Assembly: GCF_014654205.1 (NCBI RefSeq)
Contig: NZ_BNAW01000002.1
Location: forward strand, 372,001-436,000
Reading direction: 5' to 3'
Length of the DNA stretch: 64,000 nucleotides
Origin: Amycolatopsis bullii
Lineage (GTDB): Bacteria; Actinomycetota; Actinomycetes; Mycobacteriales; Pseudonocardiaceae
Positions 1 to 15,948 of this stretch are shown here, piece after piece. Made by a program: the position numbers and the translations under genes. Position 1 is the stretch's first letter, and each line of letters opens with the position of its first letter. The notes beneath the pieces were generated by a model, which was not told the origin of the DNA, did not search any database, and worked only from the letters and a program-made list of their open reading frames with translations.

Positions 1-3000
1 CGCCCAGCCCGGGGTCGGCGGCGTGCCGGCTGTTCAGCACCAGCCGCGTCGCGCCCCTGGCGGCGAGCCACTTCGCCGCCGCCAGTCCCAGCCCGCCGAG
101 GCCGCCGGTGACGATGTACGCCCCGCCGCGCACCGGCTCGCGCTCCGGTTCACCGAGCGCGGGCCGGACCAGGCGCCGCGTGTACCGGACGCCGTCGCGC
201 CAGGCGATTTCGTCGTCCGGCCCGTCCGCGCGGACCTCGTCCCGCAGCCGGTCCGTCCCGTCGACCTGGCTCACGCGCAGTTCGGGGTGCTCGAAGGCGA
301 GCACGCGCACGAGCCCGCGCAGCGCGGCCAGACCGGGATCGCCCCGCTCGCCCGGCTCGACGGCGTGCGCCCCGTCGGTCGCCAGCCACAACCTCGGCGG
401 CACGGGCAGCTCGGCCAGTTCGGCGACGACCCCGGACAGCGTCTCGACCAGCCGGGCCCCGCGCGCCGGGTCGGGTTCGGCGGCGGCGCCGAGCAGGGCC
501 AGGACCGCGGTGGATTCCGCGTCGCGCAGCAGTTTCGCGAGCTCGGCGCGATCGTCGAGCCGGGCGGTCCGGACGTCTTCGCCCGCGAACTCCCGGCCGT
601 CTTCGGACAGCACGATCCAGCGGTGCGCCGGCTTCGGCCCGCGGGGGCGCCCCCCGTTTTCCACTCTACCGGCCGCCACCGACAATTCCGGCGGCGAAGG
701 CTGCCAAGCCGCCTCGAACAGCAGGCGCGCCAGTGCCGCGTCGCGGTAGCGGCGGCAGTACACGTCGCGGAATTCGGCCAGCACGACGCCGTCGGCGCCG
801 ACCAGCTGGACGCTGCCGAGCACGCCGTCGCCGGACTCCTGGAGCACGGCATCCACCCGCACGCCGCGGCGCGGGTCGCCGGCGACCACGACCTCGCCGA
901 TGCTGAGCGGCAGGTAGAGGGCGTCCGCCTCGCCGACGGCCGCGGCCAGCGCGTGCAGGCAAGCGTCGGCGAGCGCGGGGTGCAGCACGTAGGCGGAGTG
1001 GTCGGCGTCCGGCTGCGCGATCGACGCCGACGCGCGCCCGGGCGCGGCGACCACCCGGCGCAGCCCGCGGAACGCCGGGCCGTAGAACTGCCCCAGCTCG
1101 GCCAGCGCCCGGTAGACGTCGACCGGTTCCCCGGTGGTTTCCCCGAACGGCGCCGACGGCGTGCCGCCGGTGCCGATCCGCGCGGTCGCGTGCCGGACCC
1201 ACGACCCGGTTCTCGTGTGGACACTCAGCTCGGTGCCGCGCAGCGTCGTGGTGACCTCGGTGTGTTCGCCGAGCGGCAGGACTTCCTGCAGTTCGAGGTC
1301 GTGGACGCGGCCGCCCGGCCCCGCCGCGGCGAGCGCGAGTTCCAGGAAACCGGTGGCCGGGAACACCGGGACGGCCCGGACGGTGTGGTCGGCCAGCCAC
1401 GGCAGCACCGCCGTGCCGATGTCGCCGCGCCACAGGTGGCCGCCGCCGGGGTCTTCGATGTGCACGCCGAGCAGGGGGTGCGCCCCGCCGGTGCGGACGG
1501 TGCGGCGGGGCCAGAAGCGTTCGTGCCGCCAGACCGGGCCGGGCAGCTCGACCGGCGGTGTCTGCGGCCGCGCGGCCAGCACGCCGGGGTGGCCGAGGAC
1601 GTGCAGCCGGGCGAGGCTGGTCAGGAACGCCGTCCGCTCGTCGATCCGGCGGCTCGCCGAGGGCAGCCCGAGAACGCCGGACTGGTCGATCGCGGCCAGC
1701 GCCACCGGGTGCGGCGAGATTTCGACGAAGACCGTGTGCCCGTCGGCGGCGGCCGCGGCCAGCGCCTGGCTGAACCGCACCGGACGGCGCAGGTTGGCCG
1801 CCCAGTACTCGACGTCGAAGGCGGGCGGGTCGTCGTGGACGCTGCTGTAGCACCGGATGCCGGGCGTGGCGGGGGTCAATCCCGCGACCGCGGCGCGGAA
1901 CGGCCCGAGCACCGGCTCGACGGCGGCGGAGTGCCCGGCGCCCCCGACCGGCAGCCGCCGGGCGAGCCGGCCGAGGTCTTCGGCGTGCGCGACGACGGCC
2001 TCGACGCGGTCGGCGGGCCCGCTGACGGCGCACTGGGTCGGCGACGCGTACACCGCGATGGTGACGTCGGGGAACTCCTCGAGTTCGGCCGGGGAAAGTT
2101 CGACGAGGGCCATCGCCCCGCCACCGCGTTCGTCGAGTTCGGCGAGCAGCCGCGCCCGGGCGGCCATGACCTTCAGGCCGTCGGCGACGCCGAGCGCCCC
2201 GGCCACGACGGCGGCGGCGACCTCGCCCATCGAGTGCCCGAGCACGGCGGCGGGCACGACACCGTGCGCCCGCCAGAGGGCGGCCAGGGCGAGCTGCACG
2301 CCGAACAGCGCGAGCTGCGTCGCGGCGAGGTCGGGAAGGTCGTGTTCGAGGGCTTCGCGCAGGGAGAACCCGGCTTCGGCGCGGAAGACGGGATCGAGCG
2401 CCTCGATTTCGGCCCGGAAGGCGGGTTCGGAGCGGAGCAGCAGGCGGCCCATCCCGGGCCACTGCGACCCATAGCCGGAGAAAACGAAGACGACATCGTC
2501 CCCACTCAAGTGCCCCAATGGGGCCTTGGGTGCGTTGAATGACACAGCGGCGCGAAGCGCCTCCGTTGAGGGTGGCGGCGGGGGCAAGGGAGGAGCACCC
2601 AAGGCCACATTGGGTGCGTCTGACGCACCGAAGGCCACATTGGGGCGCTCGGTACCGGCGGCCAAGGCGCGCAGGGCCTCGACCACCTCGTCCCGGCTCT
2701 CCCCGACCACCGCCCCGCGCACCGGGAGGTGCTCCCGCCGGTGCGCCAGCGTCGCCGCCACCGCGTCGAGGGGCGCCGAGCTCTCCTCCAGCCAGTCCGC
2801 CAGCTCGCCCGCCCGCGCCCGCAGCACCTCCGCCGACCGGGCCGACAGCGCGAACACCTGCGGCCCGCTCTCCCCGGCCCGGAGCGGGAACGACGCCGCC
2901 GGCCACTCTTCGACCACCACGTGCGCGTTCGTGCCGCCGAAGCCGAACGCCGACACGCCGGCCCGCGCCGTCCCGGAGTACCGCGGCCAGTCCATCCCCG

Positions 3001-4408
3001 CCGAAACCACCCGCAACGCGGTGAAGTCGATGTGCGGGTTCGCCGAACGGAAGTGCAGGCTCGGCGGCAGCCGCCGGTGCGTCATCGCCAGCACCACCTT
3101 CAGCAGCCCGGTGATCCCGGCCGCGCCTTCGAGGTGGCCCAGGTTGCTCTTCACCGACCCGAGCAGCAGCGGACGGTCCGCCGGACGCCCCGCACCGAGG
3201 ACCTCGGCCAGCGCCCCCGCCTCCAGCGGGTCACCCAGCGGCGTCCCGGTTCCATGCGCCTCCACGTAGTCCACCGAGGATGGCTCGACACCGGCCGTGG
3301 CGTACGCGTCGCGCAGCAACGCCGCCTGGGCGTCCGGGTTGGGTGCCGTCAGGCCGTTGGACCGGCCGTCGGAGTTGACCGCGCTGCCGCGGATCACCGC
3401 CAGCACCCGGTCGCCCCGCGCCGCCCGCAACGGCTTCAGCACGACCACGCCGCAGCCTTCGCCGCGGGCGATCCCGTCGGCGGCCGCGTCGAACGGCTTG
3501 CAGTGGCCGTCCGCGGCCAGCACCCCCGCCCGGTGGAACCCGGCCGTGATACCGGGGGAAAGCAGGACGTTCACCCCGGCGACCAGCGCCGTCTCGCTTT
3601 CGCCGCGGCGCAGGCTCTGCACCGCCTGGTGCACCGCCACCAGCGAAGACGAGCACGCGGTGTCCAGCGTCAGGCTGGGCCCGCGCAGGTCGAGCAGGTA
3701 CGACAGCCGGTTCGCCGCGATGCTCGCCGCCGCGCCGGTGCCGGACCAGACGTCGACACCCCCGACGTCGGTCATCGTCAGCGAGCCGTACTCGGTGGCC
3801 GAGAGCCCGACGAACACGCCGGTCCGGCTGCCGCGCAGGGTGGACGGCGGGATGCCCGCGTGCTCCAGCGCCGCCCAGGCGACTTCCAGGAGGATCCGCT
3901 GCTGCGGGTCCATCGCCTCGGCTTCCCGCGGGGTGATGCCGAAGAACGCCGCGTCGAAGGCGGCGACGTCGTCGAGGAACCCGCCGCGCGCGGGCACGCC
4001 GGCGAGGTCTTCCGCCGGGGCGAAGGTCTCCCAGCGGCCCTCGGGGACGTCGCCGATGCCGTCGCCGCCCGCGTCGAGGAAGCGCCAGAACGCTTCCGGG
4101 GACTCGATGCCGCCCGGGAGCCGGCAGCCGAGGCCGATGACCGCGATCGGCTCGCCGTCCTCCCGCAGCGGCACGTACGCCGACACTGTCTCCACAGTGG
4201 ACAGATGGTCGGCGAGAGCGGCGATCGTCGGGTACTGCCACACCAGGGTCGGGGCCAGCGGGCGGCCGACGAACTCGCCGAGGTCGGCCGCCAGGCTCGT
4301 CGCGTCCCGTGAGGACAGTCCGGTTTCGTGCAGTGGCCGGTCGACGGCCACGTCGCCGATCCGCGCGATCAGCCAGGCGCGGATCGCCGCGGCGTCCGGC
4401 GCGCTCAT
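1..4408 (-). CDS. Type I polyketide synthase (ACP-KS-AT-DH-KR), partial at left edge
   Basis: About 1470 N-terminal residues lie in the window. Order: an N-terminal acyl carrier domain (about 8-75) with GLSSRDA in place of GxDSL, as in PKSs loaded by a FAAL; ketosynthase (about 86-510) with Cys252 in TACSSSL and His in EAHGTGTPLGDP and KSNLGH; acyltransferase (about 640-930) with GHSMGE near 727; dehydratase with His1008 and a DACLH second motif; and a ketoreductase with TGGLGGLG at 1434. No ER lies between DH and KR. The AT position that usually reads YASH or HAFH reads GAGH (His826), so the extender cannot be called. The DH motif is HxxxAxxxxP instead of HxxxGxxxxP. The ATG overlaps the FAAL stop (ATGA), implying coupled translation. 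The frame stays open across the repeat at 2513-2645. Product unknown; a polyketide-extended fatty acid is inferred. Confidence 0.93.
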   Translation of the reverse strand, partial: MSAPDAAAIRAWLIARIGDVAVDRPLHETGLSSRDATSLAADLGEFVGRPLAPTLVWQYPTIAALADHLSTVETVSAYVPLREDGEPIAVIGLGCRLPGGIESPEAFWRFLDAGGDGIGDVPEGRWETFAPAEDLAGVPARGGFLDDVAAFDAAFFGITPREAEAMDPQQRILLEVAWAALEHAGIPPSTLRGSRTGVFVGLSATEYGSLTMTDVGGVDVWSGTGAAASIAANRLSYLLDLRGPSLTLDTACSSSLVAVHQAVQSLRRGESETALVAGVNVLLSPGITAGFHRAGVLAADGHCKPFDAAADGIARGEGCGVVVLKPLRAARGDRVLAVIRGSAVNSDGRSNGLTAPNPDAQAALLRDAYATAGVEPSSVDYVEAHGTGTPLGDPLEAGALAEVLGAGRPADRPLLLGSVKSNLGHLEGAAGITGLLKVVLAMTHRRLPPSLHFRSANPHIDFTALRVVSAGMDWPRYSGTARAGVSAFGFGGTNAHVVVEEWPAASFPLRAGESGPQVFALSARSAEVLRARAGELADWLEESSAPLDAVAATLAHRREHLPVRGAVVGESRDEVVEALRALAAGTERPNVAFGASDAPNVALGAPPLPPPPPSTEALRAAVSFNAPKAPLGHLSGDDVVFVFSGYGSQWPGMGRLLLRSEPAFRAEIEALDPVFRAEAGFSLREALEHDLPDLAATQLALFGVQLALAALWRAHGVVPAAVLGHSMGEVAAAVVAGALGVADGLKVMAARARLLAELDERGGGAMALVELSPAELEEFPDVTIAVYASPTQCAVSGPADRVEAVVAHAEDLGRLARRLPVGGAGHSAAVEPVLGPFRAAVAGLTPATPGIRCYSSVHDDPPAFDVEYWAANLRRPVRFSQALAAAAADGHTVFVEISPHPVALAAIDQSGVLGLPSASRRIDERTAFLTSLARLHVLGHPGVLAARPQTPPVELPGPVWRHERFWPRRTVRTGGAHPLLGVHIEDPGGGHLWRGDIGTAVLPWLADHTVRAVPVFPATGFLELALAAAGPGGRVHDLELQEVLPLGEHTEVTTTLRGTELSVHTRTGSWVRHATARIGTGGTPSAPFGETTGEPVDVYRALAELGQFYGPAFRGLRRVVAAPGRASASIAQPDADHSAYVLHPALADACLHALAAAVGEADALYLPLSIGEVVVAGDPRRGVRVDAVLQESGDGVLGSVQLVGADGVVLAEFRDVYCRRYRDAALARLLFEAAWQPSPPELSVAAGRVENGGRPRGPKPAHRWIVLSEDGREFAGEDVRTARLDDRAELAKLLRDAESTAVLALLGAAAEPDPARGARLVETLSGVVAELAELPVPPRLWLATDGAHAVEPGERGDPGLAALRGLVRVLAFEHPELRVSQVDGTDRLRDEVRADGPDDEIAWRDGVRYTRRLVRPALGEPEREPVRGGAYIVTGGLGGLGLAAAKWLAARGATRLVLNSRHAADPGLG
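2513..2645. repeat. Palindromic 20-bp repeats inside the PKS KS-AT linker
   Basis: Three related units are visible on the plus strand: cccaatggggccttgggtgc (2514-2533), gcacccaaggccacattggg (2595-2614) and gcaccgaaggccacattggg (2626-2645). The first is inverted relative to the other two. They fall in the linker between KS and AT (PKS residues about 588-632) and are read in frame. They give NVAFGASDAP- and NVALGAP-like peptide on the coding strand, next to a proline run. The KS and AT motifs on both sides share one frame, so the repeats do not break the gene. They look like an insertion of a mobile-type repeat into tolerant linker sequence; this origin is inference. Confidence 0.75.
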
Positions 4409-6153
4409 CCGAGCCGCCGCGCGGTGAGCGCACCGTCGGTGTAGGACGCTCGGCAGCGCGCCCTGCTGATCTTGCCGCTGGAGGTGCGGGGCACCTCGCC
4501 CGGCGCCAGGAAGACGACGTCGTGTAGGCGCAGCCCGTGCCCGGCCGACACCGCCGCGCGCAGCGCTGAAGCCGCCTCGGCGAGGTCGGCTTCGGTGTCC
4601 TTCGCGCGTTCCAGGACCACGACCGCGGCCTCCCCGTCATCGCCGTCGATCGCGAAGGCGGCGGCCGAGTGCGGCCGGACGGCCGGGTGCTCCTCGACGG
4701 TCTGCTCGATGTCCTGCGGGTAGTGGTTGCGGCCGTCGACGACGACCAGGTCCTTCAGCCGGCCCGTCACGAACAGCTCGCCGTCGAACTCCACGCCGAG
4801 GTCGCCGGTCGCCAGCCAGCCCTCGCCGGTGTCCGGATCGAGCGGCGGCAGGCCGAAGGTGGCGGCCGACGCCGCCGCCCGGCCCCAGTAGCCACGGCCG
4901 ACGTTCGGGCCGCTGACCCGGATTTCGCCGACCTCGCCCGGTTCCGCGGGCCGCCCGGTCACCGGGTCGGCGATGCGCACGCGCTGGCCGACCGGACGGC
5001 CGCACGAGACGAGCGTCGTGGCGGACGCGCCCGGGGTGGCCGGCTCCGCGTACCCGGCGGCGAGCCGCGCCCGGTCGAAGGTGACCTGCCGGGGCGGTTT
5101 CCCCGCGTCCGTCACCGAAACCAGCACGGTGGCCTCGGCCAGGCCGTAGGAGGACCGGTGCACCTCCGGCCGCAGCCCGCACGCGGCGAAGGCGTCGTGG
5201 AACTTCGCGATCGTCGACGGCAGCACCGGTTCGCTGCCGTTGATCAGCGAGACGACCCGGCTCAGCTCGAGGTAGGCCTTTTCGGACTCGGTGACGCGGG
5301 AAGCACAGTAGGCGTAGGCGAAGTTGGGGGCCGCGCTGATCGCCCCCGGACTGGCCGAGAGCGCACGCAACCAGCGGGCGGGCCGTTCGAGGAATGCCAG
5401 CGGGTCCATCAGGACCGACTCCAGCCCGCCGGCCATCGGCGCGCCGATGCCGAGGATCAGGCCCATGTCGTGGAACAGCGGCAGCCAGCTGACCGCCGAC
5501 GTGGTGCCGCTTTCGGCGCCGTAAGCCGCACACGCCTGGCGGGCGTTGGCGAGCACGTTGCGGTGGGTCAGCACGACCCCGGCGGGCGAGCGGGTCGACC
5601 CGGACGTGTACTGCAGGTACGCCGGGGCGTCCGGATCGGGCTCGGGCCAGTCGCGCGCCCCGGCCGCCGCCGGCACGGCGTCGACCTCGATCACCACCGG
5701 ATCGACCGGTGCATCGGCGAGGAACCGGGTGACCGCCTCGCGTTCCCCGGCCGTGGTCAGCACGGCGCGCGGACCGCAGTCGGCGAGCGCCGCGGCCAGC
5801 CGGCCCGCGTGCCCGGGCAGGCCGGGTGCGAACAACGGCACGGCGACCAGTCCCGCCCGCAGCGCGCCGAGGAACGCGACGACGTACCCCGCGGACTGCC
5901 CGGCCAGCACCGCCGCCCGCTCCCCCGGACCGGCCACTTCGGACAGCCGGGCGGCGACCGCCTCGACCCGCTCGTCGAGCTCGCGCCAGGTGAGCGTGAC
6001 CGCCCGGCCGTCGGCGCCGTCGCGGTGGTCGAGGTGGGTCACGGCGATCCGGTCGCCAAGGCGGCGCGCCCAGTGACCCAGCAGGGTCGCGAAGGACTCG
6101 CCGGCGGCGACGGGGACACCGGTGCCGGGAACCGGCCGGGAAATGGTTTCCAT
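4405..6153 (-). CDS. Fatty-acyl-AMP ligase (FAAL)
   Basis: A 582-residue member of the FadD32/FadD26-type branch of the adenylate-forming family. These enzymes activate a fatty acid as acyl-AMP and pass it directly to an ACP without CoA. Visible motifs are YTSGST (phosphate loop), SWLPLFHDMGL, SSYGLAEATV, WLATGDLGVEFDGELFVTGR and GRNHYPQDIE, and a C-terminal PRTSSGKISR lysine loop. The start METISRP (6153) is preferred over an in-frame ATG at 6234, because the extra 27 residues do not resemble FAAL and a GAGGA lies just upstream of 6153. Its stop overlaps the PKS start, and the PKS begins with an ACP. It is therefore very probably the loading enzyme for that ACP. Confidence 0.93.
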   Translation of the reverse strand: METISRPVPGTGVPVAAGESFATLLGHWARRLGDRIAVTHLDHRDGADGRAVTLTWRELDERVEAVAARLSEVAGPGERAAVLAGQSAGYVVAFLGALRAGLVAVPLFAPGLPGHAGRLAAALADCGPRAVLTTAGEREAVTRFLADAPVDPVVIEVDAVPAAAGARDWPEPDPDAPAYLQYTSGSTRSPAGVVLTHRNVLANARQACAAYGAESGTTSAVSWLPLFHDMGLILGIGAPMAGGLESVLMDPLAFLERPARWLRALSASPGAISAAPNFAYAYCASRVTESEKAYLELSRVVSLINGSEPVLPSTIAKFHDAFAACGLRPEVHRSSYGLAEATVLVSVTDAGKPPRQVTFDRARLAAGYAEPATPGASATTLVSCGRPVGQRVRIADPVTGRPAEPGEVGEIRVSGPNVGRGYWGRAAASAATFGLPPLDPDTGEGWLATGDLGVEFDGELFVTGRLKDLVVVDGRNHYPQDIEQTVEEHPAVRPHSAAAFAIDGDDGEAAVVVLERAKDTEADLAEAASALRAAVSAGHGLRLHDVVFLAPGEVPRTSSGKISRARCRASYTDGALTARRLG

Positions 6154-6245
6154 GCATCCTCGCAGAGAGCGTTTACCGGCGCAGTGAATAGCCGCGCCGG
6201 TGCGGTTGTCAACGATTCGATCTCCGATACTCATGGGGAAACGGG

Positions 6246-7631
6246 TTAGGGGACCGCACGTTTGTCACGCGGCGACGAGGTCCCGGCGGCGCGGCTCGCC
6301 GGGACGCGCACGGCCAGCAGCGCGCCGGCGAACGTCAGCCCGGCCGCGGCGAGCAGGCCCGCGGTGTACCCGCCGGCCAGCGCCGCCCCGGCGGGAACCC
6401 CCGCTTCGAGCCGCGCCGCGCGCACCGCCGTCAGCACCGCGCCGATCAGCGCGACGCCGAGTGCGCTCGACAGTTCCCGCGCCGCGGTGAGCAATCCCGA
6501 AGCCGTGCCGGAATACCGCTCCGCCACCACGTCGAGCGCGTGCGACGTCATCGGGACGGTGAAGGCCGAGCCCGCACCGATCAGGACCATGCCGGGCACG
6601 CGCGGCCACAGCGAAGGGACGTGGTTCACCGCGGCGAGGGCGAGCAGGCCCGCCCCCACCACCACCAGCCCCGCCGCCACTGTCCGAAGTGGACCATAGC
6701 GGGCGACGGCCGCGGGCACCAGCGGCGTCGCGGCCCCGACCGCGACCGCGACCAGCACCAGGGGCAGCCCCGCGCCGGCCGGGCCGAGCCCGACGAACTC
6801 CTGGTGCAGCAACGGCGTGAAGAAGAAGATCCCGGAGATTCCCAGTCCCCACAACAGCTGGAGGCCGAGCGAGCCCAGGAACACCCGGTTCCCGGTCAGG
6901 GCCGGCGGGACCAGCCGCTCGGCCGCCCGCCGTTCCCGGACGAGGAACGCGACGCCGAGCGCGGTCCCCGCGGCGAGCAGCGGGAGCCGGAGCCGGGGTT
7001 CGGCCAGCGCAGTGGTGAGCAGCACCAGGCTCGCCGTCACCAGGACCATCGCCGACGCCGGTGGCGCACGGGTCCCCGCGTCGCGGCCGGGTGGCACGGT
7101 CGACGGCAGCAGCACGAGCATCGCGGCCACGAACGGCAGGTTGACGAAGAAGATCCAGGCCCAGCCGCAGTATTCGCTCAAGACACCGCCGAGGGCGGGC
7201 CCCAGCGCCAGCGCGGCCGCCAGGCAGGCGGTCCAGACCGCCGCGCCGAGCGTGCGCCCGCGCGCGTCGAGGTTGGTCCGCAGCAGGCTCAGCAGCCCCG
7301 GCACCAGGAACGCGGCCGCGATCCCCTGCAGCACCCGGGCGGCGACCAGCAGCCACGCCGAGCCCGCCAGTCCGCCCGCCGCCGCGCCGGCGCCGAACGC
7401 GAGGAGGGCGCCCGTCAGGGCCGGGCGCCGGCCCCAGCGGTCCACCAGCGCGCCCGCCACCGGCAGGAGCCCGGCGAACGGCAGCATGTACCCGAGCGCG
7501 ACCCACTGCAGCGCGCCGACGTCCAGGCCGAGATCGCGGGCGATGGACGGCGCGCCCGCGGCGACGATCGTGTTGTCCAGCGTCGTCACGAACGCGCCGA
7601 GCGCGAGCACGGCCAGGGTCCGCCGGGTCAT
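6246..7631 (-). CDS. MFS drug/metabolite exporter, DHA2-like
   Basis: A 461-residue polytopic membrane protein. The N-terminus has TLDNTIVAAGAPSIARDL, typical of DHA2-type H+ antiporters (motif TLDxTIVNVALP), followed by VDRWGRRPALT, the loop 2-3 motif A. A dozen or more hydrophobic helices follow. The ATG overlaps the stop of the upstream MMPL gene (ATGA, 7628-7631), and FAAL begins 92 bp downstream. It is part of the lipid operon and is likely to export an intermediate, the product or a toxic by-product. Substrate unknown. Confidence 0.9.
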   Translation of the reverse strand: MTRRTLAVLALGAFVTTLDNTIVAAGAPSIARDLGLDVGALQWVALGYMLPFAGLLPVAGALVDRWGRRPALTGALLAFGAGAAAGGLAGSAWLLVAARVLQGIAAAFLVPGLLSLLRTNLDARGRTLGAAVWTACLAAALALGPALGGVLSEYCGWAWIFFVNLPFVAAMLVLLPSTVPPGRDAGTRAPPASAMVLVTASLVLLTTALAEPRLRLPLLAAGTALGVAFLVRERRAAERLVPPALTGNRVFLGSLGLQLLWGLGISGIFFFTPLLHQEFVGLGPAGAGLPLVLVAVAVGAATPLVPAAVARYGPLRTVAAGLVVVGAGLLALAAVNHVPSLWPRVPGMVLIGAGSAFTVPMTSHALDVVAERYSGTASGLLTAARELSSALGVALIGAVLTAVRAARLEAGVPAGAALAGGYTAGLLAAAGLTFAGALLAVRVPASRAAGTSSPRDKRAVP

Positions 7632-9622
7632 CGCGTGCTCCCCGCGAGCTCGCCGGCGACCGCGGCCTTGCGGCGCGGGAACCACCAGTTCGCCGCGCCC
7701 AGCCGGGCCATCACCGCGGGGACGAGCACGCACCGGACCACGACGGCGTCCAGGAGCACGGCCACGGTCAGGCCGACGCCCGCCTCGCGCACCACCCGGG
7801 CGTCGACGAAAGCGAACGACACGAACACCAGCGCCATGATCAGCGCGGCCGCGGTGATGGTCCGCCCGGTCGCCGCGACGCCGTCGACGATGGCCGCGCG
7901 GGTGTCGCCGTGGCGGCGCCAGGCCTCCTGGATGCGGGCGATGAGGAAGACCTCGTAGTCCATCGACAGCCCGAACAGCCCGGCGAACAGGAACACGGGC
8001 AGGTACGGCTCGACCGGGCCGCCGAAGGCGAACACGACCGCGCCGATGGTGGCGGCCGCGGTCAGCAGGTTCATCACCGCCGCGGTGAGCGGGATCAGCA
8101 CGCTGCGGAACACCCAGGCCAGCAGCAGGACCGAAATCCCGACGACGGTGGCGAGGAACAGCGGCAGCCGCGCGGTGATCGCCGCGGAGAAGTCCGCCCG
8201 GGCCGCGACGACCCCGCCGACGTGCGCGTCCGGGCTGCCGATGATCCTGGCCATCACCCGCGTCGACGCGAGCAGCTCGCCGGTGGCCGGATCGCCGGGG
8301 CCCGTCCGCGGGATCACCGTCAGCAGCCACCCGCCCCCGGGCAACGCGGTGGGCGGGCCGGCGTCGGCACTCGCGAGCAGCGCTTCCCGCAGCGCGCCCA
8401 CCGACTCGCCGCCGCCGGTCCCGACCACCAGCAACGGTGCGTCCGCGCCCGGTCCGAAGCCCTCTTCCAGCAGCTCGGCGGCGGTCCGGGTGACGCTGCC
8501 GGGCGGGTCGAGCGCGGCGTCCGGCACGCCGAGCCGCAGCCCGGTCATCGGGAGCGCCAGCACCGCGACGACCAGCAGGGCGGCGAGGGTGTACGGGCCG
8601 GGACGCGCGGTCACCGACCGGGCCAGCCGCGCCCACCCGGCGGCGCCGCCATCCGGGCGCAGGCTCATCCGGCGGGCGAGGAGCCGCAGCAGCGCGGGGA
8701 GCAGGGTCAGCGCGGCGAACCCGGTCAGCAGCACCGAGACCGCGGCGGCGACCGCGATCCCGTCCAGGAACGCCAGGCCGATGGTGACCATCCCGGCCAG
8801 CGAGACGCACACGGTGACCCCGGCGAGGACCACGCTGCGGCCGGAGGTCGCGGCCGCGACGGCCAGCGCCGCCCCCGGCTCGGCGCCGTCCCGGCGGCCC
8901 TGCCGGTAGCGGGTGAGCACGAACAGCGCGTAGTCGACGCCGACGCCGAGCCCGAGCAGCGCGGCGATCTCGGTGCTGATCTTCGGCATGGTCATGACGT
9001 GCGACAACAGCGTCACGGCGGCCAGGGCGGAGCCGACGGAGACCGCCGCGGTGAGGATCGGGAGGAGGACGCAGGTCACCGAGCCGAAGGCCACCAGCAG
9101 CACCGCGGCCGCGGCGAGCAGGCCGATCCCGGCGTTGCCCAGGTCGGGGGCGGCCGCCGTCATCGCGGCGAGCTCCCCGGACGCGCCCGCGGTCAGTCCC
9201 CCGGCGTCGCGGACGGTGGCGGCCAGCGCGTCGGCCGTCTCCTGCCCGAGGTCGGCGGCCGGCGCGTCGAAGCGCACGGTGAGCACCGCCGTCCGCCGGT
9301 CGGCGGACAGCAGGCCGGGCGGCGGATCGACGGCCACGACGTGCGGCACCGCCGCCAGCCGGGCGGCGAGCGCGTCGAGCCGGTCGCGGCCCGCGCCGCT
9401 GTCGACCGGGCCGTCCGGCGAGCGCACGACGACGCGTTCCGCGGCGCCGGTGGTGCGCAGCAGTTTCGCCGCCGCCGTGCTGTCCGCGGCGGGCAGGTCC
9501 ACCGTGTCGCGGAAGGCCGCGCCGGTGTGCGCCGCGGCGGAAACCAGCCCGCCCAGCGCCACCAGCCACAGCACGATCACGACGCCGGCCCGGCGGAAAC
9601 ACCAGGAAACGAGCGCCGTCAT
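7628..9622 (-). CDS. MMPL-family RND lipid transporter
   Basis: A 664-residue RND transporter of the MmpL type. It has an N-terminal TM helix, a first soluble loop, and two blocks of membrane helices. The proton-relay type motifs GVGVDYALFVLTRYR (first half) and GLSMDYEVFLIARI (second half) are intact. Actinobacterial MmpL proteins export polyketide-derived and mycolate-type lipids across the inner membrane. A GGAGGAG Shine-Dalgarno lies 7 nt before the ATG. It is the first gene of the MMPL-MFS-FAAL-PKS operon, which supports export of the PKS product. Confidence 0.93.
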   Translation of the reverse strand: MTALVSWCFRRAGVVIVLWLVALGGLVSAAAHTGAAFRDTVDLPAADSTAAAKLLRTTGAAERVVVRSPDGPVDSGAGRDRLDALAARLAAVPHVVAVDPPPGLLSADRRTAVLTVRFDAPAADLGQETADALAATVRDAGGLTAGASGELAAMTAAAPDLGNAGIGLLAAAAVLLVAFGSVTCVLLPILTAAVSVGSALAAVTLLSHVMTMPKISTEIAALLGLGVGVDYALFVLTRYRQGRRDGAEPGAALAVAAATSGRSVVLAGVTVCVSLAGMVTIGLAFLDGIAVAAAVSVLLTGFAALTLLPALLRLLARRMSLRPDGGAAGWARLARSVTARPGPYTLAALLVVAVLALPMTGLRLGVPDAALDPPGSVTRTAAELLEEGFGPGADAPLLVVGTGGGESVGALREALLASADAGPPTALPGGGWLLTVIPRTGPGDPATGELLASTRVMARIIGSPDAHVGGVVAARADFSAAITARLPLFLATVVGISVLLLAWVFRSVLIPLTAAVMNLLTAAATIGAVVFAFGGPVEPYLPVFLFAGLFGLSMDYEVFLIARIQEAWRRHGDTRAAIVDGVAATGRTITAAALIMALVFVSFAFVDARVVREAGVGLTVAVLLDAVVVRCVLVPAVMARLGAANWWFPRRKAAVAGELAGSTR

Positions 9623-9905
9623 CGGTGTTCTCCTCCCGCGTGCCGGTTGATCACGCTAACAACGGGAAGGGGCGCGAAGATACCGTCCCGGTTCACAAAT
9701 CGGATTCCGGAAACCTTTGCCGGAGTTAGTGATCCGGGATTGTCCCGCAGGTGACAAACGCCGGTGCGGCCGTTGCGCCCGGCGTGACAGAAGCCGCTCC
9801 CGGCGCAGGGAGGGCGGTTGCCAAGTCCGTTCCCGTGTGAGTACATGACGTCCGCGCCGAGCACGGCGCGACCTGTTCACCAGGCGCGGCAAAGGGGTGT
9901 GAGCC
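9623..9905. other. Divergent intergenic region between lipid operon and PucR regulator
   Basis: 283 bases between divergent genes. It must hold the promoters of the MMPL-MFS-FAAL-PKS operon and of the PucR gene. On the minus strand a TAGCGT (TANNNT) hexamer lies about 30 nt upstream of the MMPL start, but no convincing -35 box was found. No strong palindrome stands out. Confidence 0.4.
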
Positions 9906-11162
9906 ATGACCCGGACGACCACGCAGGCGACGATCCCGCACCCGCGGGGCACCGGCCGTGCGCGGCAGCTGTGGTGCTCGCTGCCGACGGAAATGGCGCG
10001 CCGGTTCCGGCCGCACGCCGACCCGCTCGCCCGGCGGATCCTCGAGGAGGTCCAGCGGGCCGTTCCCGAGTACGCCAAGCCCCTCGAAGGCGAGTTCGGC
10101 AAGATGATCGTGCTCGCGATCGAGCAGGCCGTGCTCAGCTGCATCGACAGCATCGAGGATCTGGCGTCCACACAGGACAATTGGGCCAAGTTGTTCGTGG
10201 AGGTCGGCAAGCGCGTGCACCACGACGGCGGCAGCCTCAATTCCCTGCAGGCCGCCTACCGCGCGGGTGGCCGCGCGGCGTGGCGGTACGTCGCCGAACT
10301 GGGGCAGGCCCACCGGTTCCCGGCGGCCGTGCTGTGCGTCGGCGCGGAAGCCATTTTCGCCTATGTGGAAGAGATTTCCGCGTACTCGGTCGAGGGGTAC
10401 ACCCTGGCGCAGGCGATGGCGGCCGGCACGCTCGAGCGACGGCGCCGCCGGCTCTTCGAACTGCTGCTGTCGACACCGCCGTCATCCCCGGCGACGCTGG
10501 CGACGATGGCCCAGGCAGCGCAGTGGGCGATGCCGGAGTGGGTCACGGTCGTCGCCCTCGACCCGCGGACCGACCAGCACCCGCCACCGACCCCGCAGGT
10601 GGCCGGCGACGTGCTGCTGGACCTCGACGGCCCCGAGCCGTGCCTGCTGACCCCCTACCCCGACCGCGACCTGCGCGGGCTGGAGGGCCGCCTCCCGGGC
10701 TGGCGCGCGGCGGTCGGCCCCCGCGTCCGCCCGGCCGACGCGGCGACGTCTCTCCGGTGGGCCCGCCGCACGCTCGACCTCGTCCGCCGGGGCCTGGCCG
10801 GCGACGCCCCGGTCACCCACACGGCCGACCACCTGGCCACGCACTGGCTGCTGATCGACCGCTTCCTGCTGGACGAGCTGTCGGCGACCGCGCTCGCCCC
10901 GTTCGCGGGCTTGACGGTCAAGCAGCAGACGCGGCTGGCGGAGACGCTGCTGAGCTGGCTGGAGCACAACGGGAACACGCCGGAGATCGCCCAGGCGTTG
11001 CGCATCCACCCCCAGACGGTCCGCTACCGCGTGAGCCAGCTGACCGAGCTGTTCGGCGACCGGCTGGCGAACCCGGCGAAGCGGCTGGAGATCCAGATGG
11101 CCCTGCGTGCCCACCAGCTGCTGGGCACGCGGCCGCCAGTGGACGGCCGAAGCCAAGCCTGA
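9906..11162 (+). CDS. PucR/CdaR-family transcriptional regulator
   Basis: 418 residues. The C-terminus carries the PucR-type helix-turn-helix: ETLLSWLEHNGNTPEIAQAL, then IHPQTVRYRVSQLTELFG. The N-terminal half resembles the RsbT co-antagonist-like helical domain found in actinobacterial PucR proteins. A purine-rich AAAGGGG lies 8 nt before the ATG. It is divergent from the FAAL-PKS operon across 283 bp, so it is the best candidate for its local regulator (inference). Inducer unknown. Confidence 0.88.
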   Translation: MTRTTTQATIPHPRGTGRARQLWCSLPTEMARRFRPHADPLARRILEEVQRAVPEYAKPLEGEFGKMIVLAIEQAVLSCIDSIEDLASTQDNWAKLFVEVGKRVHHDGGSLNSLQAAYRAGGRAAWRYVAELGQAHRFPAAVLCVGAEAIFAYVEEISAYSVEGYTLAQAMAAGTLERRRRRLFELLLSTPPSSPATLATMAQAAQWAMPEWVTVVALDPRTDQHPPPTPQVAGDVLLDLDGPEPCLLTPYPDRDLRGLEGRLPGWRAAVGPRVRPADAATSLRWARRTLDLVRRGLAGDAPVTHTADHLATHWLLIDRFLLDELSATALAPFAGLTVKQQTRLAETLLSWLEHNGNTPEIAQALRIHPQTVRYRVSQLTELFGDRLANPAKRLEIQMALRAHQLLGTRPPVDGRSQA

Positions 11163-11301
11163 CCGGCGACGACGAGGCCGCCCGGCAACCGGCCGCCCCA
11201 CCCCGGGCCGCTCCAGCAACCGGCGCTTCCGGCCGAGGAGCCGGGGCGACCGCCGGTCGGATGCTTCGAGCCGGTGCCGGTCGTCGGCGCACTGGGGATC
11301 C

Positions 11302-11355
11302 TTGACCGTGCGCGGCCGCGAGCCTACTGTCTTCCCAGGCTGTTAGCGCTAACAG
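11302..11355 (+). promoter_or_regulatory. galM promoter with perfect 16-bp operator
   Basis: TTGACC (11302-11307) and TACTGT (11325-11330) are separated by exactly 17 bp. The perfect palindrome CTGTTAGCGCTAACAG (11340-11355) lies just past the expected transcription start. TGTTAGCGCTAACA has the form of LacI/GalR-family operators (central CG, alternating half sites). Binding here would block initiation. The gene for the cognate LacI regulator was not identified in the window. Confidence 0.8.
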
Positions 11356-11372
11356 TCGGGGAGGACCCACCG

Positions 11373-12464
11373 ATGACCGCACCCGAGCTCACCCGTGAGT
11401 TGTTCGGCCAGGCCGACGGCACCGATGTCCACCGGTACACCCTCGGCCGGCCCGGTGGTCCGGTCGTGCGCGTGCTCGACTACGGCGGCGTCATCCAGTC
11501 CCTCGAGGCGCCGGATCGCGAGGGGCGGCTCGGCAACGTCGTCCTCGGCTTCGCGGACCTCGACGGGTACGTCGCCAACAACCGGCCCGAAGCCGACCGG
11601 GTGTTCCTGGGCGCGGTGATCGGCCGGTTCGCCAACCGGATCGCCGGCGGCACCTTCACCCTCGACGGCGTCCAGTACCGGGTGCCGCTGAACAACGGGA
11701 AGAACAGCCTGCACGGCGGCCCCGCCGGGTTCGACACGCGGGTCTGGTCCGCCACCGAGATCCGGGACGGCGACGGCGTCGCGGTGCGGCTCACGCTGGT
11801 CAGCCCGGACGGCGACCAGGGCTACCCCGGCCGGCTCACCACCGAGGTCACCTACCGCCTCGACCCGCGCGATCGGCTGCGCATCACCTACCGCGCCACC
11901 ACCGACGCGCCGACGGTCGTCAACCTCACCAACCACACCTACTGGAACCTGGCCGGCGAAGGCGCGGGCGACGTCCACGAGCACCGCCTGGAAATCGCGG
12001 CGAGCCGGTTCTGCCCGACCGGCGACGACCTGATCCCGGCCGGCGACCCGGTGCCGGTCGAGGGCACGCCGTTCGACTTCCGCCGGGGGGTGCCGATCGG
12101 CGCCCGCGTCGGCGAACCCGACCCGCAGCTGGTGATCGGCCAGGGCTACGACCACAACTGGGTGCTCGACGACGGCGCGCCGTTCGCCGCCCGGGCGTGG
12201 GACCCGGGGTCCGGGCGCCTGCTCACCATGTGGACGACCGAGCCGGGCCTGCAGTTCTACTCGGGCAACTACCTCACCGCGAACCTGACCGGTACGAGCG
12301 GCCGCCCGTACCACCGCGGCGCCGGTTTCGCGCTGGAAGCCCAGCACTTCCCGGACTCCCCCAACCGCCCGGACTTCCCCAGCACGGTGCTGCGCCCCGG
12401 CGAGGTCTACCACCAGGAGACGGTGTTCGCCCTGACCACGGCGGACGAGCCGCCGGTGGCGTGA
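11373..12464 (+). CDS. galM: Aldose 1-epimerase (galactose mutarotase)
   Basis: A 363-residue GalM-family beta-sandwich enzyme. It interconverts alpha and beta anomers of hexoses. Conserved blocks are GRFANRIAGG, NNGKNSLHGG, NLTNHTYWNLAG (catalytic His), GQGYDHNWVL, QFYSGNYLTA and FALEAQHFPDSPN (catalytic base Glu region). The ATG at 11373 follows GGGGAGGA by 7 nt. An upstream in-frame ATG at 11274 is rejected because the promoter and operator lie after it. There is no signal peptide, so it is cytoplasmic. Control by a LacI-type repressor is indicated by the palindrome at 11340. Confidence 0.95.
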   Translation: MTAPELTRELFGQADGTDVHRYTLGRPGGPVVRVLDYGGVIQSLEAPDREGRLGNVVLGFADLDGYVANNRPEADRVFLGAVIGRFANRIAGGTFTLDGVQYRVPLNNGKNSLHGGPAGFDTRVWSATEIRDGDGVAVRLTLVSPDGDQGYPGRLTTEVTYRLDPRDRLRITYRATTDAPTVVNLTNHTYWNLAGEGAGDVHEHRLEIAASRFCPTGDDLIPAGDPVPVEGTPFDFRRGVPIGARVGEPDPQLVIGQGYDHNWVLDDGAPFAARAWDPGSGRLLTMWTTEPGLQFYSGNYLTANLTGTSGRPYHRGAGFALEAQHFPDSPNRPDFPSTVLRPGEVYHQETVFALTTADEPPVA

Positions 12465-12513
12465 GCGACACTCGTGGGGCGCACGCCCGGCCCCGCCGTT
12501 AGCCTCGCCGGTC

Positions 12514-13230
12514 ATGGGAGATCTTTCCGCCGTCGCCCGGGACCTCGCGCCCACCGGCACGCTGCGCGCTGCCGTCAACCTCGGCAACCCCGTGCTCGCG
12601 CACGGCACCCCGGCCGACCCGGGCGGGGTCACGGTCGACCTCGCCCGCGAAGTGGCCGCGCGGCTGGACGTCCCGGTGGAGTTCGCCTGCTTCGACGCGG
12701 CCCGCAAGTCGTTCGAAGCGCTGACCTCGGGCGCGGCCGACCTGGGTTTCCTGGCGATCGAGCCCGCGCGCGCCGCCGAGGTCGCGTTCACGGCGCCGTA
12801 CGTCGTCATCGAAGGCGTGTACGCCGTGGCCGACGGCTCGCCGTTCGCCACCACCGCCGACGTCGACCGGCCGGGCGTCCGGATCGGGGTCAAGCAGGGG
12901 TCCGCGTACGACCTGTACCTGACCCGGACCGTCGAGCAGGCCACGATTGTGCGCGGCGAGGACGGTGTCACGGCGTTCGAGACCGAAGGGCTGGAGGTCG
13001 CCGCCGGGATCCGCCAGCCGATGACCGCCTACGTCGCCGCCCACCCCGGAACCCGCCTGCTCCCCGGACGCTTCATGGAGATCCGGCAGGCGGTCTGCAC
13101 CACCCCGGCCCGCCGTCCGGAAACGGTCACCTTCCTGCACGAGCTGGTCGAAGACCTCAAGGCCACCGGGTTCGTCGCCGACGCACTGCGCCGGGCCGGC
13201 CAGGACGCCACGGTCGCCCCGCCCGCCTGA
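12514..13230 (+). CDS. Solute-binding-like protein (PBP2 fold), no signal peptide
   Basis: 238 residues matching the extracellular solute-binding protein family 3 fold. It has GGVTVDLAREVAARLDVPVEF near the N-terminus, then ALTSGAADLGFLAIEPAR, and RIGVKQGSAYDLYL at the hinge. It begins directly with the mature-domain sequence and has no lipoprotein or Sec signal. It may therefore be a cytoplasmic binding or sensor protein rather than part of an ABC importer; no permease or ATPase is adjacent. A TAGCCT hexamer ends 8 nt before the ATG, so the mRNA may be leaderless. Confidence 0.8.
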   Translation: MGDLSAVARDLAPTGTLRAAVNLGNPVLAHGTPADPGGVTVDLAREVAARLDVPVEFACFDAARKSFEALTSGAADLGFLAIEPARAAEVAFTAPYVVIEGVYAVADGSPFATTADVDRPGVRIGVKQGSAYDLYLTRTVEQATIVRGEDGVTAFETEGLEVAAGIRQPMTAYVAAHPGTRLLPGRFMEIRQAVCTTPARRPETVTFLHELVEDLKATGFVADALRRAGQDATVAPPA

Positions 13231-13235
13231 GCGCG

Positions 13236-13745
13236 CTATCGGCCGGTCACGCCGTCGATCAGCTCGCGGCCGACATCCACGTGCCCGGCGTGCCGGGCGA
13301 AGCTCTGCACCAGGTGGCACAGGATCCACGCGAACGTCGGGTGCTCTTCCGCGCCGCCGCGGCGGGTCGTCCGGGCGGCCCGGGCGCCCAACGGTGTGCT
13401 CGCGGCGAGCCGGGCGCAGTTTTCGCGCTCCGCCAGGAAGAACGCCGTGATGTCCGCCGAAGTTTCTTCCGGAGCGACGAACCACTCCTGCTCGGCGGTG
13501 CCGGGCCAGGAGAAGTCGACGTCTTCGCCGGCGAACAGGTATCGGATCCAGAACCGTTCGGTGCAGGCGAGGTGCTTGACCATGCCCAGCGGCGTCCACC
13601 CCGACGGCAGCACACTCCGCCGCAGGTCGCGTTCCGAGAGGCCGTCGAGCTTGCGCAGGACGGCGGTGGCGTTGTGGTCGAGGTAGCCCAGCAGCAGCGC
13701 GCGCGGATCGGCCAGGGTGGGCGGGGGTTCGGGCGTCTCGACCAT
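13236..13745 (-). CDS. DinB-family protein (DUF664)
   Basis: 169 residues with the DUF664/DinB four-helix arrangement: an N-terminal YLDHNATAVLRKLDGL, then GMVKHLACTERFWI and a C-terminal HLVQSFARHAGHVD. These carry the three histidines that usually bind metal in this fold (H in VKHL and the HAGH pair). Members include mycothiol- and bacillithiol-dependent transferases, but many are uncharacterised. The ATG at 13745 is chosen over a TTG at 13751. TAGCTT (13753-13758) ends 7 nt before it, suggesting leaderless mRNA. It is convergent with the preceding gene, with a 5-bp gap. Confidence 0.85.
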   Translation of the reverse strand: MVETPEPPPTLADPRALLLGYLDHNATAVLRKLDGLSERDLRRSVLPSGWTPLGMVKHLACTERFWIRYLFAGEDVDFSWPGTAEQEWFVAPEETSADITAFFLAERENCARLAASTPLGARAARTTRRGGAEEHPTFAWILCHLVQSFARHAGHVDVGRELIDGVTGR

Positions 13746-13949
13746 GATCAAGAAGCTACTGGGCGGCAGCCCGCGACGCCGTGATCCCGCGCGCCCACGT
13801 CGGGGTGACCCGGGGTCCGCCCGGCGCGGTCACGCCACTCGCGTCGCCTTCTCATCGCTGTCGTCATCGATACGACATTGCGTCTTCTCGACGGTCGCAA
13901 CGAGTGTTACGTTCCCGAGGGGCGGGGCGGCCGAGACCGAGGAGCGACG

Positions 13950-15533
13950 ATGCAGCTTTCTCCCAGCGCTCACACCGACTCGTTCTGCCGCGACCGGCTG
14001 CCACCCGGCGACCAGTGGCCGCGGCTGGTGTTCGACCTGCCGGAGCTGCACTACCCCGACCGCCTCAACGCCGCGACCGCGTTGCTCGACGAGACCGCCG
14101 CCCGCCTCGGCGCCGACCGCCCCTGCCTGCGCTCGCCGCACGAAACGTGGACCTACGGCGACGTCCTGGCCCGCGCCAACCGGATCGCCCACGTCCTCAC
14201 CGCCGAACTCGGGGTCGTGCCCGGCAACCGCGTGCTGCTGCGCGGCACCAACACGCCGTGGCTCGCGGCGTGCTGGCTGGGCGTCCTCAAAGCCGGGGCC
14301 GTCGCCATCACGACCATGCCGATGCTGCGCCGCCACGAGCTCGACAAGATCGTCGAGAAGGCACGGCCGAGCGTCGCCCTGTGCGACGAGCGCCTGCTCG
14401 GCGAGCTGCCACCCGGCCTGCCCGTCGTGTCCTACGGCACGGAACTGGCCGAACGCTGCGCCCGCCACCCGGCCACCTTCGCCGACGTGCCGACGGCCGC
14501 CGACGACGTCGCCCTGCTCGCCTTCACCTCCGGTACGACCGGGACGCCGAAGGCGACCATGCACTTCCACCGGGACCTGCTCGCCATCGCCGACACGTTC
14601 TCCCGGCACGTCGTCCGGCCCACCCCGGACGACGTCTTCTGCGGGACCCCGCCGCTGGCCTTCACCTTCGGACTGGGCGGCCTCCTGGTGTTCCCGCTGC
14701 ACGCCGGCGCGTCGGTGCTCCTGCTGGAACGCGCGACGCCCAAGGAGCTGGCGTCGATCGTCGCCGAACAGGCGGTGACCGTGCTGTTCACCGCCCCGAC
14801 CGCCTACCGCGCGATCCTCGGCTCCGGCGACGGCCCCCTGCTGGCCGGGGTCCGGCGCGCCGTCTCCGCCGGGGAAGCACTCCCGGCCACCCTGGCCGAG
14901 CGGTACCGCGAGGTCGTCGGATCGCCGTTGATCGACGGCATCGGCAGCACGGAGATGCTGCACGTGTTCATCTCCGCGGCCGACGGCGACGCGCGCCCCG
15001 GCCGGACGGGCAAGGTGGTCCCCGGCTTCCGCGCCGCTGTGCTGGACGTCGACGGCCGGCCGGCTCCGGACGGCACGCCCGGGCTGCTCGCCGTCCAGGG
15101 CCCCACCGGCTGCCGCTACCTCGACGACCCCCGGCAGGCCGACTACGTCCGCGACGGCTGGAACATCACGGGCGACACGTACGTCCGCGAACCCGACGGC
15201 TACTTCCGCTTCGTGGCGCGCAGCGACGACATGATCGTCTCTTCCGGTTACAACATCGCGGCTCCCGAGGTCGAAGAGGTGCTCCTGACGCACCCGGACG
15301 TCGAGGAGTGCGCGGTCGTGGGCACCCCCGACCCGGATCGGGGCGCGGTCGTGACGGCCTTCGTCGTGCTCCGGCCGGGCGTCGCCCCGGGCCCGGACGT
15401 CGCACACGCCCTGCAGGAGCACGCCAAAGCCGTCGCCGCGCCGTACAAGTACCCGCGCCGGGTGCGCTTCCTCGACGCACTGCCGCGCAATGCCAGCGGC
15501 AAGCTGCAGCGGTACCTGCTGCGCGAGCGCTGA
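13950..15533 (+). CDS. AMP-dependent aryl/acyl-CoA ligase (benzoate-CoA ligase-like)
   Basis: 527 residues of the adenylate-forming family. Motifs are FTSGTTGTPKATMHFHRD (phosphate loop), PTAYRAIL, GIGSTEMLHVFIS (A5 region), WNITGDTYVREPDGYFRFVAR, and RNASGKLQRYLLR with the catalytic Lys. The pattern is closest to benzoate and 2-aminobenzoate-CoA ligases. The ATG at 13950 follows GAGGAG by 5 nt; the longer in-frame ATG at 13878 lacks a site. It stands alone between convergent and downstream unrelated genes, so its pathway is not shown by context. Confidence 0.88.
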   Translation: MQLSPSAHTDSFCRDRLPPGDQWPRLVFDLPELHYPDRLNAATALLDETAARLGADRPCLRSPHETWTYGDVLARANRIAHVLTAELGVVPGNRVLLRGTNTPWLAACWLGVLKAGAVAITTMPMLRRHELDKIVEKARPSVALCDERLLGELPPGLPVVSYGTELAERCARHPATFADVPTAADDVALLAFTSGTTGTPKATMHFHRDLLAIADTFSRHVVRPTPDDVFCGTPPLAFTFGLGGLLVFPLHAGASVLLLERATPKELASIVAEQAVTVLFTAPTAYRAILGSGDGPLLAGVRRAVSAGEALPATLAERYREVVGSPLIDGIGSTEMLHVFISAADGDARPGRTGKVVPGFRAAVLDVDGRPAPDGTPGLLAVQGPTGCRYLDDPRQADYVRDGWNITGDTYVREPDGYFRFVARSDDMIVSSGYNIAAPEVEEVLLTHPDVEECAVVGTPDPDRGAVVTAFVVLRPGVAPGPDVAHALQEHAKAVAAPYKYPRRVRFLDALPRNASGKLQRYLLRER

Positions 15534-15538
15534 CGGGG

Positions 15539-15582
15539 GTGACGGGCCCGCTGCCGAGGTGGGGTGGCGGTGGGCCCGTCAC
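15539..15582 (+). terminator. Strong hairpin after CoA ligase
   Basis: The arms gtgacgggccc (15539-15549) and gggcccgtcac (15572-15582) form a perfect 11-bp stem with a 22-nt loop, starting 5 nt after the ligase stop. There is no U-tract, as is usual for actinomycete terminators. Confidence 0.7.
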
Positions 15583-15948
15583 GTCTGAGGGGTGTCGAGG
15601 ACATGGCTCAAGCGTAGCCGAAGATTCGAACACATGTTCAGGGCCATTCAGGTAAAACCCGGCTACGAACTGTCACGCGAAACTCCGACATTCTCCGCCA
15701 CGACAACACTTCCGGGTGACAAGAGTCCTCAGTGGACGGTCCACGCCAAACCGGGGCACCCGCCGTCGCGCAGGACCCCCGGCCGCGCCACGTCGAAGCG
15801 TCCGTTTCCGGGCCGTCACCGGCAAAACTCCTCACACCGCCCTGACCTGCACCGAGGACCATCACCCCGCCGCGCCGCCGAGGCGGTGGCAGCCGCCGCG
15901 ACCCGACCCCATAAAGTCTTCGCGCAGCCATCGGAGGTGACCACCCGC
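15583..15948. other. Long leader region upstream of the J-domain gene
   Basis: This stretch precedes the GTG of the J-domain gene. The frame is open across it, but residue composition (Arg/Pro/Ser-rich) and the strong Shine-Dalgarno at 15933 argue against coding. It contains a LexA-like box at 15626-15641 and a TAAAGT hexamer at 15912-15917 that could be a -10. No RNA gene was recognised. Confidence 0.45.
15626..15641. promoter_or_regulatory. LexA/SOS-box-like site
   Basis: TCGAACACATGTTCAG matches 10 of 12 defined positions of the actinobacterial LexA box TCGAAC-N4-GTTCGA. It lies about 310 bp upstream of the J-domain/NERD gene, the only gene it could obviously serve. One imperfect site at this distance is suggestive only. 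Confidence 0.4.

Follow-up and report, generated by a model that had tools for sequence, protein, structure and literature searches.

Mycolic acids build the mycomembrane, and the synthase Pks13 is a drug target. Other mycobacterial lipid loci combine a fatty-acyl-AMP ligase (FAAL), a polyketide synthase (PKS) and an MmpL transporter; these are the loci for phthiocerol dimycocerosates (PDIM), sulfolipid-1 (SL-1) and acyltrehaloses. The mycolic acid cluster of Mycobacterium tuberculosis comprises AccD4, Pks13, FadD32, Rv3802 (of the cutinase family), Ag85D and Ag85A; a figure legend of the source gives the cluster as conserved in all actinomycetes and the text names mycobacteria, corynebacteria, nocardia and rhodococci (PMC2625445). 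The thioesterase (TE) of Pks13 releases its product onto polyols, with trehalose preferred (PMC9210659); the substrates in the Pks13 assay of that paper were labelled lauric acid, carboxypalmitoyl-CoA, ATP and trehalose. The locus described here is found in Amycolatopsis bullii. It lies partly within a stretch of 64,000 nucleotides, termed the window (positions 372001–436000 of contig C2, NZ_BNAW01000002.1, in a genome of 9.38 Mb), and partly to the left of it. Genes were called from open reading frames (ORFs), codon-position G+C content and Pfam matches.

The locus probably makes a mycolate-type lipid with an alpha-alkyl-branched acyl chain, formed by one Claisen condensation on a Pks13-like synthase with built-in reduction; the probability of this reading is put at about 0.6. 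The order of genes and domains, the catalytic residues and the clades of the ketosynthase-acyltransferase (KS-AT) region and of the AccD are read from the sequence, and every chemical step is inferred, as are the acceptor, the chain lengths and where the lipid acts.

Comparison of the locus with the mycolic acid cluster

Four genes of the locus are in the window, all on the minus strand. They encode an MmpL-family transporter of 664 aa (7628–9622; PF03176, 2.4e-73), a major facilitator superfamily (MFS) exporter of 461 aa (6246–7631; PF07690, 2.5e-44), a FAAL of up to 609 aa (4405–6234; PF00501, 3.6e-66), whose start codon is the ATG at 6234 or lies about 27 codons further in, and the 5′ two thirds of a Pks13-like PKS (1–4408). 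This part of the PKS has an acyl carrier protein (ACP) domain followed by KS, AT, dehydratase (DH) and the start of the ketoreductase (KR). ATGA start/stop overlaps are present at MmpL/MFS and at FAAL/PKS, and the set is therefore coupled. An initial annotation of the window had described these genes as coupled, and as an uncharacterised lipid pathway with a FAAL-loaded, ACP-first PKS in an Amycolatopsis-like background; both descriptions hold.

That annotation had also recommended reading the left flank, which proved worthwhile. The PKS gene runs off the window for another 1,919 bases, to C2:370082 (whole gene C2:370082–376408, minus strand, 2,108 aa), and the remainder encodes the rest of KR, an ACP, a degenerate ACP and a TE. 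On the same strand follow an AccD-type carboxyltransferase of 526 aa (C2:368505–370085), which overlaps the PKS stop by four bases, and a mycolyltransferase homologue (PF00756) of 323 aa (C2:367524–368495) with an evident signal peptide, as assessed by eye; a lipase and a cutinase lie beyond these. With the AccD and the mycolyltransferase homologue of the left flank, the meaning of the gene set shifts toward a mycolic acid condensation locus.

As in the Rv3799c–Rv3804c locus, a FAAL, a PKS with an N-terminal ACP and a TE, an AccD4-type AccD, and proteins of the mycolyltransferase and cutinase families are found in one place. The likeness to fadD32-pks13-accD4 extends to the FAAL-PKS-AccD order, which the true Pks13 loci (L122–L130) also display, to the KS-AT clade in the careful trees, and to the AT motif and AccD residues. 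However, the PKS holds DH and KR between AT and ACP, while Pks13 is ACP-KS-AT-ACP-TE. The mycolyltransferase homologue is downstream of AccD, MFS and MmpL genes are additional, the cutinase is not Culp6 by model, the FAAL is not FadD32 by tree, and mycolates are said to be absent from the genus. The locus appears to work like a mycolic acid condensation locus with built-in reduction. Its different domain order, scores below the Pks13, MmpL3 and Culp6 cut-offs and the failure to recover FadD32 orthology keep it from being classed as a member. No description of Pks13-like loci outside mycolate bacteria was found in the literature searched, most subscription papers being beyond the reach of that search.

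The PKS and its relationship to Pks13

The PKS is complete, with the order ACP-KS-AT-DH-KR-ACP-degenerate ACP-TE; the third ACP-like stretch is without the attachment serine. The motif GLSSRDA in the N-terminal ACP, to which the initial annotation had drawn attention, is shared with a solved N-terminal ACP of Pks13 (6c4q, 6d8i). The following catalytic residues are retained: C-H-H in KS, Y in KR, H and D in DH, S in ACP and S-D-H in TE. There is no enoyl reductase (ER) domain among the Pfam matches of the PKS. The ratio of nonsynonymous to synonymous substitution (dN/dS) is 0.01–0.58 (14 segments, three relatives) and 0.20–0.29 for DH. The AT motif residue that precedes A-x-H is Gly in 33 of 38 DH-KR family rows, in all six f2/f13 rows and in all nine Pks13 rows; it is Val in the seven other mycobacterial rows (7/7).

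Trees were built with close Amycolatopsis copies thinned out. A careful KS-AT tree of 40 rows displays a clade of 31 rows (100/98) which includes the window type, the second locus of the same genome, Streptomyces, Frankia, Solirubrobacteraceae and five true Pks13 sequences. In the same tree 36 rows are united (99/92), with TE present in 34 and none in L067 and L216; two mycobacterial ACP-first PKSs and two outgroup rows are outside this group. A second careful sample of 38 rows gives a clade of 30 rows with Pks13 (98/99), and four mycobacterial ACP-first PKSs fall outside it. In the approximately unbiased (AU) test, a topology with the non-Pks13 rows as one group and Pks13 outside was rejected (p 0.005), the group having been defined after the first trees were seen. 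In the two careful trees, the KS-AT region of the window PKS thus appears to share descent with true Pks13. Pks13 is nested inside the radiation in the 40-row tree, and its closest sister is not the window type.

The AccD carboxyltransferase

In the AccD tree the locus AccDs and AccD4 form a group of 41 rows, separate from the PccB/AccD5-type clade, with a Shimodaira-Hasegawa-like approximate likelihood ratio (SH-aLRT) support of 94. The top-scoring solved relative is 5inf/5ini (833 bits); these we take to be the MccB entries, an assumption that fits PMC5187497. According to that paper, Phe occupies the position of MccB Gly161 in the carboxyltransferases known to act on acyl-CoAs with up to four carbons, and MccB has Ala where PccB has Asp421 (PMC5187497).

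These two chain-length positions were matched across AccDs by alignment, and ten rows repeating already counted loci were excluded. At the Gly161 position the 39 locus AccDs have G (33), A (4) or S (2), and the nine AccD4 rows have G (7), A (1) or S (1); at the Asp421 position Ala is present in 39/39 and 9/9, respectively. The ten PccB/AccD5-type rows counted have Phe at the first position (10/10) and D (7) or C (3) at the second. Ten additional rows, classed as other, include a fragment, L162, of the 11-row PccB/AccD5-type clade (Leu, Ala) and L154, a further paralogue of the AccD4 type (Ser, Ala); Phe is present in eight of these ten rows.

By tree and residues, the AccD appears to be of the AccD4 type, with small residues that in MccB admit longer acyl-CoAs. 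It has the same Gly and Ala as MccB (SamR0483, of stambomycin synthesis) at both positions; MccB, however, serves a modular PKS, whereas the partner of the locus AccD is a single Pks13-like synthase.

The mycolyltransferase homologue and the MmpL transporter

Against solved structures, the PF00756 protein (P0006) scores 169 bits with PS1, 79 with Cmt1 and 77 with Ag85B, and 59 with the best other esterase; PS1 and Cmt1 are taken here to be mycolyltransferases. The S-E-H triad and a GTHSWPYW motif are kept. Two mycolyltransferase homologues are detected in the genome at E ≤ 1e-8, each beside a Pks13-like PKS.

Where Ag85 and PS1 show LDGLR, a segment which presumably has a role in trehalose binding, the PF00756 protein has LHGCC. 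The change of LDG to LHG was considered as a sign of a non-trehalose acceptor, but this idea was dropped since Cmt1, with LNGGD aligned there, also departs from LDGLR.

The best NCBIfam model for the MmpL protein is MmpL3, with 182 bits against a cut-off of 1400, and the cutinase gives 20 bits with the Culp6 (Rv3802c-type) model against a cut-off of 570; both fail. MmpL, which is found near six of 38 family loci, is a lineage-specific exporter.

Distribution of related loci

At E ≤ 1e-100, 128 of the 297 genomes of the family had a match to the FAAL, and 40 regions were fetched. Two were dropped: L033, with 10,812 bases of N, and L072, the third FAAL of the A. bullii genome. The 38 loci kept were chosen among the upper and middle entries of the FAAL list, with the second locus of the same genome included, and are not a random sample. 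Near these 38 loci there are matches to KS (36), TE, DH and KR (37 each), and to the partners mycolyltransferase homologue (36), AccD (32), MFS (30), PucR (16), lipase (14), MmpL (6) and cutinase (2). As a control, none of seven other mycobacterial PKS regions (L103–L109, 7.8–19 kb each) shows an AccD or mycolyltransferase match. The Pks13 equivalog model NF040607 is passed in 39 of 249 genomes of the order; all 39 are listed as family f8 and none as f1.

Saccharopolyspora, Actinokineospora, Streptomyces, Frankia and Solirubrobacteraceae also have related loci, and so does A. azurea (L041/L194). The named loci are the best 80 of a longer list, 59 from genera taken as mycolate-free and 21 from mycolate genera, a division which is our assumption. 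Among these best 80, KS and TE are present in 39 of the 59 loci from mycolate-free genera: 33 of the 39 have a mycolyltransferase homologue, 22 an AccD and 18 both, and 18 are without DH and KR. The 39 include Streptomyces (16), Amycolatopsis (6), Actinokineospora (4), Frankia (1), and Saccharopolyspora, Solirubrobacteraceae and Actinacidiphila (2 each). KS and TE are present in 11 of the 21 loci from mycolate genera, all with mycolyltransferase and AccD (11/11) and none with DH or KR (0/11).

The second locus of the A. bullii genome (L066, C7:167800–187700) has, at about 8301–16380, a FAAL and a 1,443-aa PKS without DH or KR. Pfam gives KS, AT, TE and two ACP stretches for this PKS, and the N-terminal ACP is also found by tblastn; this is the layout of Pks13. 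A divergent mycolyltransferase homologue is present, with glycosyltransferase-family ORFs nearby. The third FAAL, L072 (C2:253785–255404), has no PKS match within the surrounding 20 kb.

Three other arrangements were observed. In ten loci (L200, L204, L205, L208–L213 and L229; nine from Streptomyces and one titled Actinobacteria bacterium OV320), genes for an AccD, a FAAL, a PKS without DH/KR matches, a mycolyltransferase homologue, a PucR-type regulator and a cutinase are consecutive. In L220, L233, L240 and L249 (Nonomuraea, Actinomadura) a FAAL is beside MmpL and a mycolyltransferase homologue, with no TE match nearby. L110 and L111 (family f2) keep the FAAL-PKS-AccD locus, and the catalytic histidine motif of the DH region is gone.

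Proposed pathway

Judging from the protein families, the FAAL would convert a fatty acid to an acyl-AMP and load it on the N-terminal ACP. AccD, with a housekeeping biotin carboxylase, would form a 2-carboxy-acyl-CoA (alkylmalonyl-CoA), and AT, as its residues suggest, would place the alkylmalonyl unit on the second ACP. KS may then join both units to give an alpha-alkyl beta-keto chain, from which KR would produce the mycolic motif (alpha-alkyl, beta-hydroxy) and DH probably a 2-alkyl-2-enoyl chain. TE would release the chain onto an alcohol, which the analogy with Pks13 suggests to be a sugar or polyol. The ester may be exported by MFS and/or MmpL, and the secreted mycolyltransferase homologue would hand the acyl group to the final acceptor outside.

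The initial annotation had called the product not predictable. For the exact structure, chain lengths and acceptor, which are not derivable, this stands; the class, however, can be narrowed to a putative alpha-alkyl beta-hydroxy or 2-alkyl-2-enoyl ester.

Alternative explanations

Several observations weigh against a mycolate-type lipid. A quick KS-AT tree of 61 rows gives no order at the base, where the PKSs of this kind, a Nonomuraea/Actinomadura group and the mycobacterial ACP-first PKSs meet, and its forks near Pks13 reach only 84–87, although 48 rows including Pks13 stay united (SH-aLRT 95). The joint clade has only 85 in the first quick KS-AT tree. The AccD tree carries a long-branch warning, and the raw score of the AccD is nearer to PccB (746–748 bits) than to AccD4 (531). 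The DH motif, HTVRAVPVFP, has Ala where Gly is expected, the DH histidine is gone in both f2 rows, and the AT motif has Val, not Gly, in the five C7-type PKSs (5/5) and in two basal family PKSs. NF040607 gives the window PKS 1248 bits, below its cut-off of 2100. Six of the 38 family loci have no AccD nearby and two have no mycolyltransferase. Amycolatopsis is described as being without mycolic acids, with arabinose and galactose in the wall (PMC8532670).

Among solved structures the FAAL is closest to two chains labelled acyl-CoA synthase (434 bits), followed by FadD32 (421–423 bits). A quick FAAL tree, built to show orthology with FadD32, puts FadD32 with other mycobacterial FAALs and not with the window FAAL, so that this orthology was not recovered. 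The locus therefore need not have descended as one unit: the PKS and AccD probably have a common origin with their counterparts in the mycolate locus, and the FAAL may not.

The initial annotation had placed the genes in the frame of mycobacterial FAAL-PKS-MmpL virulence lipids. The locus would then make a methyl-branched or iterative lipid like PDIM, sulfolipid or acyltrehalose, from a FAAL starter and methylmalonyl-CoA, with MmpL export and the AccD as a propionyl-CoA carboxylase. The gene set is indeed present, with FAAL loading of an N-terminal ACP and MmpL nearby in the window lineage. In addition, the best PDB score of the whole PKS is with mycocerosic acid synthase (907 bits; Pks13 848–881) and that of AT alone with PpsA/PpsC (230–234 bits; Pks13 170–188). 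However, unlike those loci, this one is without ER and has a TE; it also has an AccD and a mycolyltransferase homologue, two partners of the mycolate type that are not seen in the control regions. The sampled mycobacterial ACP-first PKSs are outside the KS-AT clade that holds Pks13 in the careful trees, MmpL is uncommon among the family loci, and the AccD has longer-chain, not PccB, residues. On the careful trees and these residues a virulence-type lipid was rejected as improbable.

A secreted biosurfactant or natural product is also unlikely, though somewhat less so. Here the same condensation would take place, and the ester would be released to help the cell feed on plant cutin or other hydrophobic substrates, under regulation shared with the lipase and cutinase. 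This accords with the flanking secretory lipase (PF03583; C2:366284–367504, same strand as the PKS) and cutinase (PF01083; C2:365554–366213, opposite strand, divergent). Pks13-like loci of Streptomyces, A. vancoresmycina and Kibdelosporangium likewise have a cutinase and a PucR-type protein next to them, 12 of the 59 loci from mycolate-free genera in the best 80 have cutinase matches, and MFS is commoner than MmpL near the 38 family loci (30 vs 6). The secreted mycolyltransferase homologue, found near 36 of these loci, is nevertheless better suited to transfer to a fixed acceptor, and the M. tuberculosis mycolate cluster also contains a cutinase-family gene (PMC2625445).

Least probable by far is a relic: mycolates would have been made by an ancestor, and the locus would since have fallen silent or begun to decay. 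Wall arabinose and galactose in a genus described as lacking mycolates (PMC8532670) would agree with it, as would the lack of mycolic acids in Pseudonocardiales and Actinopolysporales stated in PMC6194230. But the catalytic residues are kept and dN/dS is well under 1, on which grounds the relic was rejected; moreover, the locus is retained across the family and beyond, and Pks13 is nested inside, not ancestral, in the careful tree. A mycolate-type lipid is preferred to these three explanations.

A possible origin of mycolic acid synthesis

Clusters of this kind in other actinobacteria point to a possible origin of mycolic acid synthesis. Tentatively, and at somewhat less than even odds, it is proposed that a mycolate-type lipid system is present in actinobacteria whose genera are considered free of mycolates, with examples ranging from Amycolatopsis and Streptomyces to Frankia and Solirubrobacteraceae. 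This would consist of a FAAL, a Pks13-like synthase and often an AccD4-like carboxylase and secreted mycolyltransferase homologue, with the product in some cases reduced in the synthase. True mycolate synthesis would have arisen inside this radiation, Pks13 losing the reductive domains, and Amycolatopsis would produce a mycolate or anhydro-mycolate ester in quantities small enough to have been overlooked. A reducing relative of the gene set in soil bacteria would offer a laboratory system for mycolate chemistry and a possible origin for the pathway that is open to lipid analysis. It would also point to a group of acyl lipids that may have escaped chemotaxonomic testing.

Neighbouring genes

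A divergent PucR-family regulator is present at 9906–11162 on the plus strand (PF13556, 1.9e-19), as the initial annotation had reported, and is a probable control gene. Beyond the cutinase on the left flank are a TetR-type regulator and a second PucR-type regulator. A further group of genes at L001:3254–8310, minus strand, encodes a luciferase-like protein, a nitronate monooxygenase-like protein, two CoA-transferase subunits and an enoyl-CoA hydratase; we take these genes to resemble those of steroid ring degradation.

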